Shown here one piece after another: positions 25,395-35,102 of a DNA stretch of 64,000 nucleotides. Under the pieces are notes generated by a model. That model made no database searches. It was given only the letters and a program-made list of their open reading frames with translations, and had not been told where the DNA came from. The position numbers and the translations under genes are program-made. Source of the stretch: a bacterium (GTDB taxonomy: Bacteria > Electryoneota > RPQS01); the NCBI GenBank assembly GCA_023382385.1, contig JAHDVH010000003.1:248001-312000 (forward strand), read 5' to 3'. Each line of letters begins with the position of its first letter. Position 1 is the stretch's first letter.

Positions 25395-26756
25395 TCAGGA
25401 TCCACCTTCAGTCGTGAGTCCCAGCTGCCGGCAAAGCGTGGATGCAAGTCGGTCCGCTGGAAGTGTCACCTGTTGCTGCGTTCGCAAGTTCTTGAGTGAA
25501 ATTTCACCACGCGCACGCTCGTCAGGACCGGCAATAACGACAAACGGGATTCTCTGCTGATCAGCGTATGAGAATTGTTTCTTCATGCGGTCATCGTCAT
25601 ACCAGATCTCTACGCGTAGTCCTGCACGCCTAAGCTCCGCCGCAAGCTCAAGATAGTTCGCAACGCCCGCATCATCAAATCTCGCAATCAAGACCTGTGT
25701 TTCCGATGGTTCCGACGCAAATTTCTCAAGTTGAGTCAGCGCAGTTTGAATGCGATCCAAACCGATCGTTGTTCCGGTTGCCGGTACATTTGCTTTTGAG
25801 AATGTTGAAACCAAGCCGTCATACCGACCTCCGCCCGACAATGAACCAAGGTGCGGAAGCGCGGGCAAAACGGTTTCAAAGATCGGTCCGGTGTAGTAGT
25901 CAAGACCGCGAGCAAGCGTCGTGTCGAAGGACAGCCTGCCTTCGGATACTCCTAATTCGTGTGCGGCTTGAAACACCGTTTCAATTTCAGAGAGTCCCGC
26001 TTGTGCCGCCTCATCCCTCGAAATCATGTTGCGAGCAGACGAGAAGTCGGGAGATGTTCCTCCTGAAGCCATAAGTTCAGTAACTCGCTTACGGGCGTCT
26101 GCGGCGGGAATGCCATGTCTTGAGAACTCTTCCTCCACTCCGTCCCAACCTATCTTGTCCAGTTTGTCGAGACATCGGCAGAAGTCGAAGAAGTGTGATT
26201 GGTCGCCAGTGATCAAGTGCGAAAGGCCAGCAAGGAACTTGCGGGATGAGAGCCGAATTCGGAAATCCTCAAATCCAATCGACGCAAGGACCTCGTGTGT
26301 CAGTGCGAGTATTTCCGCGTCTGCGAGTGGTGATTCCGTTCCAAGAATGTCGGCATCACACTGCACAAACTCACGATATCTACCCTGCCGCGGCTGAGGC
26401 CGGTCTGCTCTCCACACCGGCTGAATCTGATAGCGTTTGAATGGCCGAGGCAGTTCCGCATACTGTGCGACCACGCGAGCCAAAGGAACCGTTAAGTCAT
26501 ACCGCAATGCTATCGCACTTTCTACAGAGTCCTCTGCGTCGCCACGCGCCCGCCGAATCTCGTAGATCAGTTTGTCATTTTCTTCCGACTTTCCGGTCAG
26601 TATTTCGAGATATTCGATTGCCGGCGTTTCCAGAGGCTGAAAGCCGTATCGCCGGTATGCCTCTTCAATCACGGCCAACAAGCGCCGTCTGGGAATCAGT
26701 TCAGAAGGCAAGAAATCGCGAGTACCGCGAAAAGTGCGAGGCTCGATTCTACTCAA
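25395..26756 (-). CDS. hisS: Histidyl-tRNA synthetase HisS
   Basis: Class II aminoacyl-tRNA synthetase. The 453 residues include motif 1 (AYRRYGFQPLETPAIEYLEIL), motif 2 (FKRYQIQPVWRADRPQPRQGRYREF, seen as QIQPVWRADRPQ and GRYREFVQCDAD), the histidine-specific LARGLDYYTGPIFE, motif 3 (TGTTIGLDRI) and the anticodon-binding domain (TQVLIARFDD to the end). The start codon appears to be TTG at 26756. A strong intrinsic terminator lies only 25 bases upstream in the same orientation, preceded by a possible promoter, so expression may be set by attenuation (see the leader features). Confidence 0.95.
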   Translation of the reverse strand: MSRIEPRTFRGTRDFLPSELIPRRRLLAVIEEAYRRYGFQPLETPAIEYLEILTGKSEENDKLIYEIRRARGDAEDSVESAIALRYDLTVPLARVVAQYAELPRPFKRYQIQPVWRADRPQPRQGRYREFVQCDADILGTESPLADAEILALTHEVLASIGFEDFRIRLSSRKFLAGLSHLITGDQSHFFDFCRCLDKLDKIGWDGVEEEFSRHGIPAADARKRVTELMASGGTSPDFSSARNMISRDEAAQAGLSEIETVFQAAHELGVSEGRLSFDTTLARGLDYYTGPIFETVLPALPHLGSLSGGGRYDGLVSTFSKANVPATGTTIGLDRIQTALTQLEKFASEPSETQVLIARFDDAGVANYLELAAELRRAGLRVEIWYDDDRMKKQFSYADQQRIPFVVIAGPDERARGEISLKNLRTQQQVTLPADRLASTLCRQLGLTTEGGS

Positions 26757-26780
26757 ATTGTAAGCTACTGTTTAGTATAA

Positions 26781-26804
26781 ATAAAAAGCCCCGCAAGCAG
26801 GGCT
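26781..26804 (-). terminator. Intrinsic terminator in front of hisS
   Basis: On the minus strand AGCCCTGCTTGCGGGGCT forms a 7-bp stem (one U-G) with loop CUUG, followed directly by TTTTTATTTAT. It ends the ade transcript or the short leader RNA upstream of hisS. Confidence 0.85.
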
Positions 26805-26853
26805 GACGTGGAGCACATTGCCTCCCACGGTTTAGGTCCACCCAGCTTACCTA
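26781..26853 (-). ncRNA. Candidate hisS leader / small RNA with competing terminator and antiterminator folds
   Basis: About 73 bases between a possible promoter and the terminator. Three structures can be drawn: a hairpin CGTGGGAG/CTCCACG (26807-26829); the terminator (26787-26804); and a helix pairing 26840-26850 with 26793-26803 (10 pairs, one U-U mismatch), which uses the terminator's own 5' arm and loop. The last two exclude each other, as in attenuators. No known riboswitch or T-box could be assigned. It may equally be a free small RNA or just the ade 3' end. Confidence 0.4.
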
Positions 26854-26860
26854 TCCAGTC

Positions 26861-26889
26861 AATATCTGAGTTTTGAGCCGAAAAATCAA
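26861..26889 (-). promoter_or_regulatory. Possible sigma70 promoter for the hisS leader
   Basis: Minus strand TTGATT (26884-26889), 17-base spacer, GATATT (26861-26866); matches 4 of 6 at each box. Transcription would begin near 26853, just upstream of the structured leader, and 20-50 bases after the ade stop. Confidence 0.4.
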
Positions 26890-26911: not shown

Positions 26912-28636
26912 CTAATTGTCCGGAACCGCAAGGTCGATCACGGAGAACTTCTCGACGTCGACCAGCCCATGATCTGTTAACTTCAGGCTTGGGATCACGG
27001 GGAGAGCGAGAAAGGAAAGCGCCATAAACGGTGAAGAGAGTTTGGAACCCAGTTCTCGTGCCGCATGATGCAACGCTTCAATCTCGGGTGTCACCTCTCT
27101 GGCGGACTTATTTGTCATTAAACCTGCGACGGGCAGGGACACCGAAGCGGTTACTTTCCCATCTCGAACCACCACCCAGCCGCCCTGAATCTCGGCAAGT
27201 CTTTGCGCCGCTATGAGCATGTCTTGATCATCCATGCCCACACAAATGATGTTATGAGAGTCATGACCAACGGTGGACGCGAGCGCACCGTCCTCCAACC
27301 CGAATCCGCGAACAAATCCCTTTCCCACATTGCCATTCTTGCCGTGCCGTTCAATCACAACAAGTTTTGCGATATCTTGCGTGGAATCTGCGTGCAATAC
27401 TCCGTTACGGACGGGGAGACTGGCAGTCGAGCGGCCGGTCACAATCTGGTCAGGGATCACGTCAATGACGTTTACTTGCTTTGTCGACGCATTGACTACA
27501 AAACTCTCGGTGGAAAGTGGCGGGAGGGTTACCGTTTCGGATACCGCTGAGACATCACTTTTTTTGATTGGAACGAGCAATTCGCCTTCACGAGCCACTT
27601 CGATACCTCGTCGGAAGACGCGCAGGGGGCGAAATTCCTTCAGGTCTTCAAGCACGACCAAATCCGCATGGCGTCCCGGCAAAACCGCCCCGGTGTGTCT
27701 GACCCCAAATATCTGTGCAGTGTGAGTGCTCGTCATGGCAACAGCAAGAATAGGATCTAACCCGAGTGATACCGCCTTTCGCAGTGTTGCATTCATATGT
27801 CCTTCAATAAGCAGTTCGTCTGCATGCCGATCATCAGACACAAATGCGAAGCGATGAGCATTTTCCGGTCTAACCAGCGGCAGAAGGTTTCTCATGTTCT
27901 TCGCGGTTGATCCTTCACGAATGAAAACCGCCATGCCGCGGCGGAGCTTCTCCTGTGCTTCCAGAAGCTGCGTGCTCTCATGATCCGTGGCAATACCTGC
28001 GGCAGCGTACGCATTCAACCACTTGCCGCTGACACCAGGAGCATGTCCATCGACCGGTCTGCCGTTTGCCAAATCTACTTTGCGGAGCACAGACTCATCG
28101 CCCAGAATCACGCCGGGGAAATTCATGACTTCCGCGATGCCGAGAACTCGGGGATGAGTCAGAAATGTCTGCATGTCCTTCCACTCAAGAACTGCGCCGG
28201 CTGTTTCCATGTGTGTCGCGGGAACACAAGACGGAATCATGACCCAAACGTCCAGAGGGAGATTCTCTGAACTGTCCAGCATGAACTGAATGCCGCGAAC
28301 GCCAAGCACGTTTGCAATCTCGTGCGGGTCGCAGAACACACCACCAGTGCCGAACGGAACGACCGTACGGGCAAACTCCGGCGGTGTCATCAATGTTGAC
28401 TCGATATGAATATGCCCGTCTAAGAATGCGGGTGCAAGATAACGACCTTTAAGGTCAATCGTCTCGCGTGCTTCGTAGTCACCGATTCCAGCAATCCGGC
28501 CTTCGAATACTGCAACGCCCGCCTCTTCAATCTCATAGGAAATCGTATTGATCAGGCGGGCGTCTTTCAAGAGCAGGTCGGCGGGTCGGTCGCCTCGGGC
28601 GACCTCGAGCAGACGTTGCTTGGAGGAAACATCCAC
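26912..28636 (-). CDS. ade: Adenine deaminase Ade
   Basis: Amidohydrolase converting adenine to hypoxanthine in purine salvage. The 574-residue length fits. Metal ligands are in LDGHIHIESTLM (residues ~73-84), with the family's FCDPHEIANVLG, GHAPGVSG, DHEST and FVSDDRHADEL motifs; the C-terminal MALSFLALPVIPSLKLTDHGLVDV stretch is characteristic of this enzyme. Two-metal (Mn or Fe) chemistry is known for the family. Start is GTG at 28636, 16 bases after the MCE gene, so it is probably cotranscribed with it. Confidence 0.93.
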   Translation of the reverse strand: MDVSSKQRLLEVARGDRPADLLLKDARLINTISYEIEEAGVAVFEGRIAGIGDYEARETIDLKGRYLAPAFLDGHIHIESTLMTPPEFARTVVPFGTGGVFCDPHEIANVLGVRGIQFMLDSSENLPLDVWVMIPSCVPATHMETAGAVLEWKDMQTFLTHPRVLGIAEVMNFPGVILGDESVLRKVDLANGRPVDGHAPGVSGKWLNAYAAAGIATDHESTQLLEAQEKLRRGMAVFIREGSTAKNMRNLLPLVRPENAHRFAFVSDDRHADELLIEGHMNATLRKAVSLGLDPILAVAMTSTHTAQIFGVRHTGAVLPGRHADLVVLEDLKEFRPLRVFRRGIEVAREGELLVPIKKSDVSAVSETVTLPPLSTESFVVNASTKQVNVIDVIPDQIVTGRSTASLPVRNGVLHADSTQDIAKLVVIERHGKNGNVGKGFVRGFGLEDGALASTVGHDSHNIICVGMDDQDMLIAAQRLAEIQGGWVVVRDGKVTASVSLPVAGLMTNKSAREVTPEIEALHHAARELGSKLSSPFMALSFLALPVIPSLKLTDHGLVDVEKFSVIDLAVPDN

Positions 28637-31699: not shown

Positions 31700-32679
31700 G
31701 GCTCTGTCCTTTGGGGGGTATTGTCCCCGCCGATTTCGTCTGTGGTTTTGGTCTCGTCGGCATGCGGGTGAGCCTGTTGGTAGGCTTTTCGCAGGCGGCG
31801 AGCTGTCACGTGCGTATAGCGCTCGGTCGTCCGAACTGATGCATGACCGAGCAATTCCTGTACCGCACGAAGGTCTGCACCTCGCGCAAGTAAGTGCGTT
31901 GCAAAACTATGTCTTAGCTTGTGCGGACTGGCTTCCGGTAAAAGGCTGCCCAGCCGCGACTTGATGATTTTCGCTGCCCTGAAGCGACTGAGCGGTTTTC
32001 CGCGGTCAGATAGCCACAGAGGGTCCGACGGACAATCAGGAAACTGCCGTCCACGACTTGCCAGGTAGTCCTGCAGGGCCTGAAGCGACGCCAGGGAGAG
32101 CGGGACGACCCTTTCCTTGCTTCCTTTGCCTAAAACGCGCGCAGTTCCGCGACGTATGTCGATGTCCGACAAACTTAATCCTAAGGCCTCGGAAATTCTG
32201 AGTCCCCCGCCATATAGTAGCTCGAGAAGAGCTCGATCCCGCACATTCGGCCATGTATCACCAAGACTATCCAGAGACTCGGCTAACGCAGATTCGGAGA
32301 AGATATGCGGTAGCGGCTTCTTCACCCGAGGAGGGTCAAGCAGTGCAACGGGATTCTGGGTAATTGCGCTATTCCGCAAAAGAAACTTCGAGAAGTCACT
32401 CAATACGGCGCGCTTGCGTTGCAGCGTCGAGGGGGCTAAGTCGTCGGCGGCCCAGCGATACATGATGTCTCGCAGGTTCTCATACATCCAATCAGCGATT
32501 TCGGGAGTACGATCAAGCTGACTCTTGAGGCTCGCGATAGCTTGAAACAGGTCACGCTTGTACGCAGCTTGAGTGTGCGGCGAGCGTTTGCGGCGAGCAA
32601 GGTCCTGCACATAGGCGTCCACGAAGGACCCAAGACTTATGACTTCGCCGCCTGCTCTATCTCGATTTTGTGCTTGCAT
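31696..32679 (-). CDS. xerC: Tyrosine recombinase XerC/XerD
   Basis: Site-specific recombinase, probably resolving chromosome dimers at dif. The N-terminal SAM-like domain (SPHTQAAYKRDL) and catalytic domain are complete: LLYGGGLRISEALGL (Arg), GKGSKERVVPL (Lys), SPHKLRHSFATHLL (His-x-x-Arg), LGHASVRTTERYTHV (His and the nucleophile Tyr). The frame is open to 32751, but the ATG at 32679 limits overlap with the topA end to 43 bases and fits family length (327 residues). topA-xerC neighbourhood is known from Firmicutes, which argues for a housekeeping gene and not a mobile integrase. XerC versus XerD is not decided. Confidence 0.9.
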   Translation of the reverse strand: MQAQNRDRAGGEVISLGSFVDAYVQDLARRKRSPHTQAAYKRDLFQAIASLKSQLDRTPEIADWMYENLRDIMYRWAADDLAPSTLQRKRAVLSDFSKFLLRNSAITQNPVALLDPPRVKKPLPHIFSESALAESLDSLGDTWPNVRDRALLELLYGGGLRISEALGLSLSDIDIRRGTARVLGKGSKERVVPLSLASLQALQDYLASRGRQFPDCPSDPLWLSDRGKPLSRFRAAKIIKSRLGSLLPEASPHKLRHSFATHLLARGADLRAVQELLGHASVRTTERYTHVTARRLRKAYQQAHPHADETKTTDEIGGDNTPQRTEP

Positions 32680-35102
32680 TTCGGACATTGGTGGATAAGA
32701 CCTGCTTTCAGGTTCTTCTCCTCCATATAGTTGTTCCCGCAGGCCGGACACTTTTCCGCGATCGGTCTGTTCCAGCTGACAAAATCACAGTTGGGATAAT
32801 TGGAGCATCCGAAGAAGAGTTTTCCCCGTCTCGATTTGCGTGCACTGATCTTTCCGCCACAGCCTTCGCGGGGACAGTCAATGGCGTTGGGGTCAGGCAT
32901 GGGCAGGATCGTCTTGCACTCGGGATAGCCTGTGCAACCTAAGAACCAGCCGAAGCGGCTGCGCTTGGGCGCCATCTGCTTCCCGCATTTCGGGCAGGGA
33001 GTTTCCGGCACTTCAGGCGCTTTCTCCCCTTCCAGCGGCTCAGTATAACGGCATTCGGGGTAATTCGTGCATGCGATGAACTTGCCCGCACGACCCCACT
33101 TCATGACCAATTCTCCGCCGCACTCCGGACAAGGCTTGTCCAGCACTTCCTGAGTGCCTTTCTTTATCTCGTCACGATTCTGCTTCACACGTTCGAGGTC
33201 GGCCGAAAATGGTTTGTAGAAGTCTTTCACGACCTTCTGCCACTTTACACCGTCATTCTCAATGGAGTCCAGCTCTTCTTCCATTTGAGCAGTGAACGAC
33301 ACGTTAAACACGTCCGGGAATTGCTCAATCAAGACCTTGTTGACGGCCTCGCCAAGCTCGGTCGGCTGGAAGCGTCGCTGCTCATTTGTGATGTACTTGC
33401 GTTTAACGAGTACCGAGATGATTTGAGCGTAGGTGCTCGGTCTTCCAATCCCGAGTTCGTCCAGAGTTTTCACCAAAGAGCCGGCATTGTATCGGGGAGG
33501 CGGCTCCGTGAAGTGCTGCGTGGGGGTAACTCTCTCCGCTGGATACTGCTTGCCAACCTTCAGTTCGGGCAGCTCATTGGTCATTTCCGTTTCAAGCTGC
33601 TCGCGCGCATCATGCGGCGTTTCGTCAGCCACTTCCGCAAGGACTTGCAGATGGCCCGGGAAAAGCATACGACGGCCGTTGGCGCGAAACTCGTACTTCC
33701 CGACCTCAAGCGTCGCGGTCGTCACTTCAAAGCGAGCCTCTTCCATTTGCGACGCAACAAAACGCTTCCAAATCAATTCGTATAACTTGAATTGTTCAGG
33801 CTTCAAGTATTTCTTGACTGACGACGGGTCGCGGGTCACATCCGTCGGACGGATCGCTTCATGCGCGTCTTGAGCCGCGTTCTTGGTCTTGAACAGGCGA
33901 GGATGGGCGGGCAGATACTCTTTTCCGTAGCGGTCCACGATGAACTCACGCAAGTGGGTCAAGGCTTCCGGAGAAACTCGCACGGAATCCGTACGCATGT
34001 ACGTGATTAGTCCGACCGAACCATCCTTGCCCAACTCCACGCCTTCATAGAGTTGTTGAGCCGCCGACATGGTTCTATCGTTGGAGAAACTTAATCGCCG
34101 TGCCGCATCCTGCTGCAGAGTCGATGTCGTGTACGGCGCGGAGGGCGAGGACTTGGTTGGGCGGGACTTGAGGTCCGTTAACTTGAACTCTTTTCCCGTG
34201 CATTCCTTGACAATTGCCTTCGCAGATTTCTCGTCCGAGACTTCCGCCTTCTTGCCGTCGATCTTTGAGAGTCTGGCTTCGAATGTCTCTTGCTTGCTTG
34301 CTGTAAGCAAGGCGGCAATCGTCCAATACTCCATCGGAGTAAAAGCGCGAATTTCGGCTTCTCGTTCACATATAAGCCGTAATGCAACCGATTGGACTCG
34401 GCCTGCCGACAGGCCACGAGCAATGATTTTCTGAAGCAGGGGAGACACTAAATAACCTACGAGGCGATCCAGCACACGGCGCGCCTGCTGCGCGTCCACT
34501 TTCTTACCGTCCAACTCACCCGGACGCGAGAGTGCCTTCTTGACGGCATCCCGCGTGATCTCGTTAAAAAGAACTCGGCGAATCTTCGTCTTGTGCTGAG
34601 GGTCTATCTCCTCTGCTATGTGGAAGGCGATCGCCTCGCCTTCGCGGTCAGGGTCCGTCGCAATAAACACTTCCGAAGCATCCCGCGCATTTCGGCGGAG
34701 CATCGTCAAAACGTCTTCTTTCCCGCTTATCGTGACGTACTCGGGTTCGAAATTATTCTTAAGGTCAACTCCGAGTTTCTTCTCTGGGAGGTCGCGCACG
34801 TGGCCTACTGATGCGGCCACCGCATATTCCTTCCCGAGATAACCCGACAAAGTGCGCGCCTTCGCCGGTGATTCGACAATAACGAATTTGCGCCCAACCG
34901 CTGACACTTCGTGCATTGCAGCACTGCGGGACGGCCTCCTTGTCGCCGCGCCCGTTCGCGCAGCCGATGCCTTTTTTGAGGAAGTCGCTTCTCGCGACAC
35001 AGACTTCTTTGACACCTTTTTTGTGGCGGAGGACGTCTTCTTTGCCGCAGTTTTTGCGGATTTTGACGCGCTTTTCTTCTTTGTTGTTTTCTTGGTCGGC
35101 AT
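32637..35102 (-). CDS. topA: DNA topoisomerase I TopA with lysine-rich N-terminal tail
   Basis: Type IA topoisomerase relaxing negative supercoils. Residues 1-62 are an unusual Lys/Ser/Ala-rich tail (KKTTKKKSASKSAKTAAKK type). The Toprim domain starts at ~72 with KFVIVESPAKA (Glu77) and has the TDPDREGEA acids (151, 153); the catalytic Tyr369 is in GLITYMRTDS. The C-terminus has four zinc-binding units, the first three of topoisomerase type (CPECGG...CTNYPEC, CPKCGK...CTGYPEC, CGGK...CSNYPNC) and a last CPACG...CPKC ribbon. Total 821 residues. A hairpin lies just upstream of its AAGGAT ribosome site. Confidence 0.96.
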   Translation of the reverse strand: MPTKKTTKKKSASKSAKTAAKKTSSATKKVSKKSVSREATSSKKASAARTGAATRRPSRSAAMHEVSAVGRKFVIVESPAKARTLSGYLGKEYAVAASVGHVRDLPEKKLGVDLKNNFEPEYVTISGKEDVLTMLRRNARDASEVFIATDPDREGEAIAFHIAEEIDPQHKTKIRRVLFNEITRDAVKKALSRPGELDGKKVDAQQARRVLDRLVGYLVSPLLQKIIARGLSAGRVQSVALRLICEREAEIRAFTPMEYWTIAALLTASKQETFEARLSKIDGKKAEVSDEKSAKAIVKECTGKEFKLTDLKSRPTKSSPSAPYTTSTLQQDAARRLSFSNDRTMSAAQQLYEGVELGKDGSVGLITYMRTDSVRVSPEALTHLREFIVDRYGKEYLPAHPRLFKTKNAAQDAHEAIRPTDVTRDPSSVKKYLKPEQFKLYELIWKRFVASQMEEARFEVTTATLEVGKYEFRANGRRMLFPGHLQVLAEVADETPHDAREQLETEMTNELPELKVGKQYPAERVTPTQHFTEPPPRYNAGSLVKTLDELGIGRPSTYAQIISVLVKRKYITNEQRRFQPTELGEAVNKVLIEQFPDVFNVSFTAQMEEELDSIENDGVKWQKVVKDFYKPFSADLERVKQNRDEIKKGTQEVLDKPCPECGGELVMKWGRAGKFIACTNYPECRYTEPLEGEKAPEVPETPCPKCGKQMAPKRSRFGWFLGCTGYPECKTILPMPDPNAIDCPREGCGGKISARKSRRGKLFFGCSNYPNCDFVSWNRPIAEKCPACGNNYMEEKNLKAGLIHQCPKCKHKIEIEQAAKS

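Follow-up and report, generated by a model that had tools for sequence, protein, structure and literature searches.

A weak terminator between a conserved promoter and hisS: a candidate attenuator in a small bacterial clade

Background

The region upstream of the histidyl-tRNA synthetase gene hisS raises the question of whether the intrinsic terminator found there closes the transcripts of the preceding gene or acts as an attenuator in the leader of hisS itself. In the window, by which we mean the whole 64,000-nucleotide stretch that was analysed, ade and then hisS follow each other on the minus strand, and the gap between them carries a promoter, a middle hairpin, a terminator and its U tract. 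The features are as follows.

25395-26756, minus strand: hisS, histidyl-tRNA synthetase (TIGR00442, 377 bits, above cut-off), with a TTG start at 26756
26777-26786, minus strand: U-rich tract of the terminator, merging into the AU-rich translation start region (from the sequence)
26787-26804, minus strand: intrinsic terminator stem-loop, -10.6 kcal/mol (from fold and shuffles; hairpin at the same distance in G001 and G006)
26807-26829, minus strand: middle hairpin, enclosed by the proposed antiterminator (from RNA folding)
26840-26854, minus strand: early transcribed region, in which transcription is predicted to begin near 26854; the proposed antiterminator has its 5' strand at 26850-26840 (from family conservation and nascent-RNA pairing)
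26861-26889, minus strand: hisS promoter, TTGATT-17-GATATT, in which CTCAAA..TC of the spacer is also conserved (from family conservation)
26912-28636, minus strand: ade, adenine deaminase (TIGR01178, 615 bits), its stop 108 nt 5' of the terminator stem

The window's genome is referred to as G000 and its hisS leader as L001, and leaders L002 and L003 are those of genomes G001 and G006; the three form one clade in the hisS tree (support 97/100). The TTG start and the N-terminus PRTFRGTRDFLP of hisS are kept across the family. The gene upstream of hisS varies: L001 and L006 have ade there, several genomes have a sigma-54 activator, and further genomes have other genes.

Results and discussion

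A conserved promoter upstream of the terminator

The promoter boxes, TTGATT (26889-26884) and GATATT (26866-26861), are separated by 17 nt, in agreement with the upstream spacing favoured in this genome, where TTGAC or TTGAT is followed by TA 18 nt later. Each of the 11 family genomes carries a block of the form TTGMTTTTC..CTCAAA..TCGCATAWTA ahead of the hisS start, and the distance from promoter to start codon is 97-110 nt in ten of them and 43 nt in L009. A search with the 30-base promoter motif returned exactly one copy per genome, always at hisS, in the six genomes matched, the window's own copy being too diverged for the mismatch limit; since the full motif is single-copy and specific to hisS, the possibility that it is a general motif of the genome was ruled out. 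The sequence-only reading had proposed a weak promoter here, and the element is indeed present, however it is well conserved in the family and not merely weak; judged by this conservation, the predicted promoter exceeds chance.

Transcription would start near 26854. As the conserved promoter lies 5' of the terminator, transcripts of hisS should pass through it. The early leader (UUAGGUGAAUU), with its UAGGU-type block, is conserved in the family, including genomes that have no terminator, and its conservation therefore does not stem from antitermination.

A terminator confined to three leaders

The terminator is a G+C-rich stem-loop, AGCCCUG-CUUG-CGGGGCU at 26804-26787 on the minus strand, directly followed by the U tract UUUUAUUUAU to 26777. 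Described as strong in the sequence-only reading, it is present and rarer than chance, its strength of -10.6 kcal/mol being equalled by 0.7% of leader shuffles; the fold energy of the leader as a whole is ordinary (z -0.66). The distance from stem end to hisS start codon is about 30, 30 and 29 nt (29-31) in L001, L002 and L003, respectively. The terminators of these three leaders are unrelated in sequence, and for each of them no more than 0.7% of shuffles of the leader concerned reach its strength. In all three genomes the terminator thus stands between the promoter, with its predicted start site, and the start codon of the gene. No such terminator was found in the seven other family hisS leaders tested, nor at the corresponding position elsewhere in the phylum.

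One might argue that a second hisS promoter overlaps the U tract and that the terminator only blocks transcription arriving from upstream, as TATACT in L001 and TATAAT in L002 occur just past the stem. However, these hexamers lack a -35 element at 16-18 nt, L003 carries no comparable hexamer, and the AU-rich block is conserved as a translation start region where the terminator is absent; we consider this explanation very improbable.

Comparison with terminators at gene ends

A stem-loop followed by a U tract is equally the form of an ordinary gene-end terminator. In G000, 404 kb of contig C3 were surveyed for such terminators (340 kb of stretches were taken for the survey). The 40 that were found have a median of -18.2 kcal/mol, only two being weaker than -10.6 kcal/mol, and nearly all lie 20-45 nt, mostly 20-30 nt, past the stop codon. 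The gene-end terminators of this genome are uniform, with stems of about -18 kcal/mol. Against this class the hisS terminator is an outlier, being weaker, misplaced relative to ade (108 nt from its stop) and downstream of the hisS promoter. It is therefore too distant and too weak to be the usual end of ade, and the 3' end of ade, offered in the sequence-only reading as the simpler alternative, is a poor fit.

In L002 and L003 an upstream open reading frame (Sigma54_activat) crosses the hisS promoter and stops inside the hisS leader, its stop codons occupying leader positions 16-18 and 18-20, with the terminator stem 26-30 nt later. In G001 and G006, then, the terminator has the distance of a gene-end terminator, though not the strength. 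This frame has also stayed open across the promoter in L001 (LDFSAQNSDIDWIG, resembling LDFPSKNSDINRLG). These observations bear on the main rival explanation, in which the terminator is the leftover or still working end of the gene upstream of hisS and no switch exists. In the ancestor of the clade the sigma-54-activator gene would probably have ended in the leader, a terminator would have arisen behind it, and ade would later have replaced the gene; the terminator would now end ade transcripts, hisS tolerating partial read-through. The spacing of 26-30 nt past the sigma-54-activator stop, which is the usual one for a gene end, keeps this origin as the main rival, and it is further favoured by the open frame across the promoter in L001 and by the lack of any other terminator 20-45 nt past the ade stop. 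However, besides the weakness and remoteness of the stem in the window's genome, the terminator has been retained after the loss of the upstream gene, L006 has ade directly upstream and no terminator, and a plain terminator downstream of the conserved hisS promoter would cut the expression of its own gene. We give this gene-end explanation a substantial chance, short of an even one. In a likely course of events, the terminator would first have closed the sigma-54-activator gene and then have persisted in the hisS leader as a partial stop.

A competing fold in the nascent leader

The sequence-only reading had suggested that 26840-26850 can pair with 26793-26803 in exclusion of the terminator, around a third hairpin at 26807-26829. 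These coordinates proved exact: the alternative helix consists of GUAAGC (26850-26845) with GCUUGC (26798-26793), a U.U mismatch, and GGGU (26843-26840) with GCCC (26803-26800), giving 10 pairs and one mismatch, and the middle hairpin is also present by RNA folding. A middle hairpin is kept in G001 and G006, but not its sequence. For the predicted nascent transcript to 26793, the alternative helix is the minimum-energy fold, with a mean pairing probability of 0.89; in the longer transcript the terminator is favoured (0.87 versus 0.09), by only 1.4 kcal/mol.

The geometry is similar in L001, L002 and L003 although their sequences differ. In all three the first 15 nt fold onto the 5' arm and loop of the terminator, with nascent pairing probabilities of 0.89, 0.81 and 0.78, respectively. 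The later balance between the folds differs, the terminator being favoured by 7 kcal/mol in L002 and not at all in L003, so that the balance itself is not conserved. Alignment with relatives had been suggested as a check for compensatory changes. The helix does recur in the three genomes, where positions 12-14 pair at equal offset, G12-C and G13-C are kept, and two-sided changes are seen at position 7 (A-U/G-C/G-C) and position 14 (G-C/A-U/G-C); such recurrence in three sequences is suggestive only and no proof of covariation.

The helices had been inspected by eye before testing, and the control figures that follow are hence optimistic: for L001, L002 and L003, respectively, the pairing is reached by fractions of 0.052, 0.045 and 0.004 of full shuffles of the upstream part, by 14, 23 and 5% of sequences in which just the first 22 nt were shuffled with composition kept, and by 1.7, 11.8 and 0.1% of random genomic 50-mers. 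In L001 and L003 the terminator arm pairs better with the first 22 nt than does any of the 40 gene-end terminators, and in L002 this pairing falls in the top 12.5%. Among 10 family leaders compared, each of the three arms has its best partner in its own leader; plain duplex energies are not cognate-specific, the leader of L003 pairing better with the arm of L001 than with its own, which makes this test a weak one. The alternative helix is thus moderately beyond chance against genomic controls and weakly so, at about 0.05, when composition is kept.

An eight-base repeat was also observed: AGCCCTGC at the ade stop (26913-26906) recurs at 26804-26797, where it opens the terminator. When the longer transcript is folded, the copy at the ade stop pairs with the loop and 3' arm of the terminator, and in this way it could also hinder termination of transcripts reading through from ade.

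The positions of the sigma-54-activator stops permit a further explanation, in which ribosomes ending the upstream gene cover the antiterminator strand, the terminator folds and read-through transcription stops, whereas transcripts initiated at the hisS promoter, which are not translated in this stretch, form the antiterminator and are extended, so that hisS is insulated from upstream transcription. The stop in L002 and L003 is placed such that a ribosome terminating on it would occlude the antiterminator's 5' strand (positions 4-16), and the scheme would explain where the promoter lies as well as the gene-end distance. However, this scheme is wholly inferred and concerns two genomes only, G001 and G006, because the ade stop of the window lies upstream of the promoter, and we regard it as unlikely. 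If true, it would be a hybrid of insulator and attenuator of a kind not met in the literature consulted.

The hisS leader as a candidate attenuator

Taking these alternatives into account, we favour, at a probability of roughly 0.45, the reading in which the hisS leader of this clade of three genomes is a candidate attenuator with set or regulated read-through. The conservation of the promoter, the position and rarity of the terminator and its unlikeness to gene-end terminators come from the computation itself. In the proposed mechanism, hisS would be transcribed from its own conserved promoter with a leader of roughly 73 nt, and the weak intrinsic terminator, 29-31 nt ahead of the start codon, would close this leader. 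While the transcript emerges, its initial 15 nt would pair with the terminator's loop and 5' arm, delaying or preventing the folding of the terminator, and part of the transcripts would thereby read through into hisS. The antiterminator would have to form in the cell, and something would presumably shift the balance.

The attenuator suggested by the sequence-only reading is partly supported: within the leader, the terminator follows a conserved promoter, and the competing fold recurs, however only in three genomes; among the 11 family genomes the switch is not conserved beyond L001, L002 and L003. The histidine, purine or stress signal suggested to set the choice gained no support, since neither a T-box, a His-rich leader peptide nor a sensor was found.

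Comparison with known classes of leader

The statement that no T-box or other known class is recognisable agrees with the database searches. Scanning the window, the leader and its relatives against Rfam detected no leader family, and the T-box model RF00230 had no match in the whole genome, in the leader at E<=5 or in the relatives. By eye, GGGUGGACC in the leader resembles a T-box core, but it is absent from the relatives and was rejected; likewise, mimicry of tRNA-His by the middle hairpin was discarded, as the loop sequence is not kept in relatives.

According to the survey of Naville and Gautheret (2010, PMC2965389), T-box riboswitches occur upstream of hisS in Firmicutes and in some Chlorobia and Gammaproteobacteria. 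They share with the present case a choice between terminator and antiterminator in the hisS leader; however, the window's leader is only about 73 nt long and has no Stem I or specifier, and the relatives have no conserved T-box sequence. The leader-peptide attenuators of the enteric his operon and of Bacillus hisS*/hisZ (PMC2965389) are also short, with mutually exclusive folds before a histidine gene, whereas the three leaders here have no short reading frame holding a run of His codons, each leader reading frame containing at most one His codon. There is also a resemblance in form to the unclassified premature 5' terminators of the same survey (PMC2965389), which are also weak, occur upstream of hisS and change fast in sequence; the hisS case here differs in being limited to a clade of three genomes. 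It is further stated there that 5' (attenuator) terminators are weaker on average than 3' terminators and that hisS is known to change between attenuator types (PMC2965389), and a further type would therefore not be surprising.

Shared by only three related uncultured bacteria, the hisS-leader element may represent a switch outside the known classes. If real, it would be a tRNA-synthetase attenuator in a candidate phylum that uses neither T-box nor leader peptide, and one caught early in evolution, arising in a small clade from the end of an upstream gene.

Other leader hairpins

Two further hairpins were noticed. At G000:C3:126900 (minus strand) a terminator-like hairpin of -15.3 kcal/mol lies 39 nt before a gene whose product, judged by eye, resembles a glycine-cleavage T protein, and is possibly another leader terminator.

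In the window, a terminator-like hairpin at 35143-35118 (minus strand) lies 17 nt before topA (32637-35102; DNA topoisomerase I) and has the form AGCUUURAGC-NNNN-GCUYRAAGCU followed by a UUU tract. It matches no Rfam family. Of the 13 genomes of the order, 11 have it as a single copy, which always lies upstream of topA, and a covariance model detected it in no other of 39 phylum genomes. The stem is almost invariant, 100% paired and with zero two-sided changes counted, and is therefore conserved in sequence. It looks like a conserved topA leader element, better conserved than that of hisS. Just 5' of this hairpin the block GTGAACCTGTCACAGTTTTCGCAGTTTAA (L149-L153, L156) was seen in seven family genomes, whereas the window's genome and the sister family have diverged versions; the block is a candidate promoter or operator.
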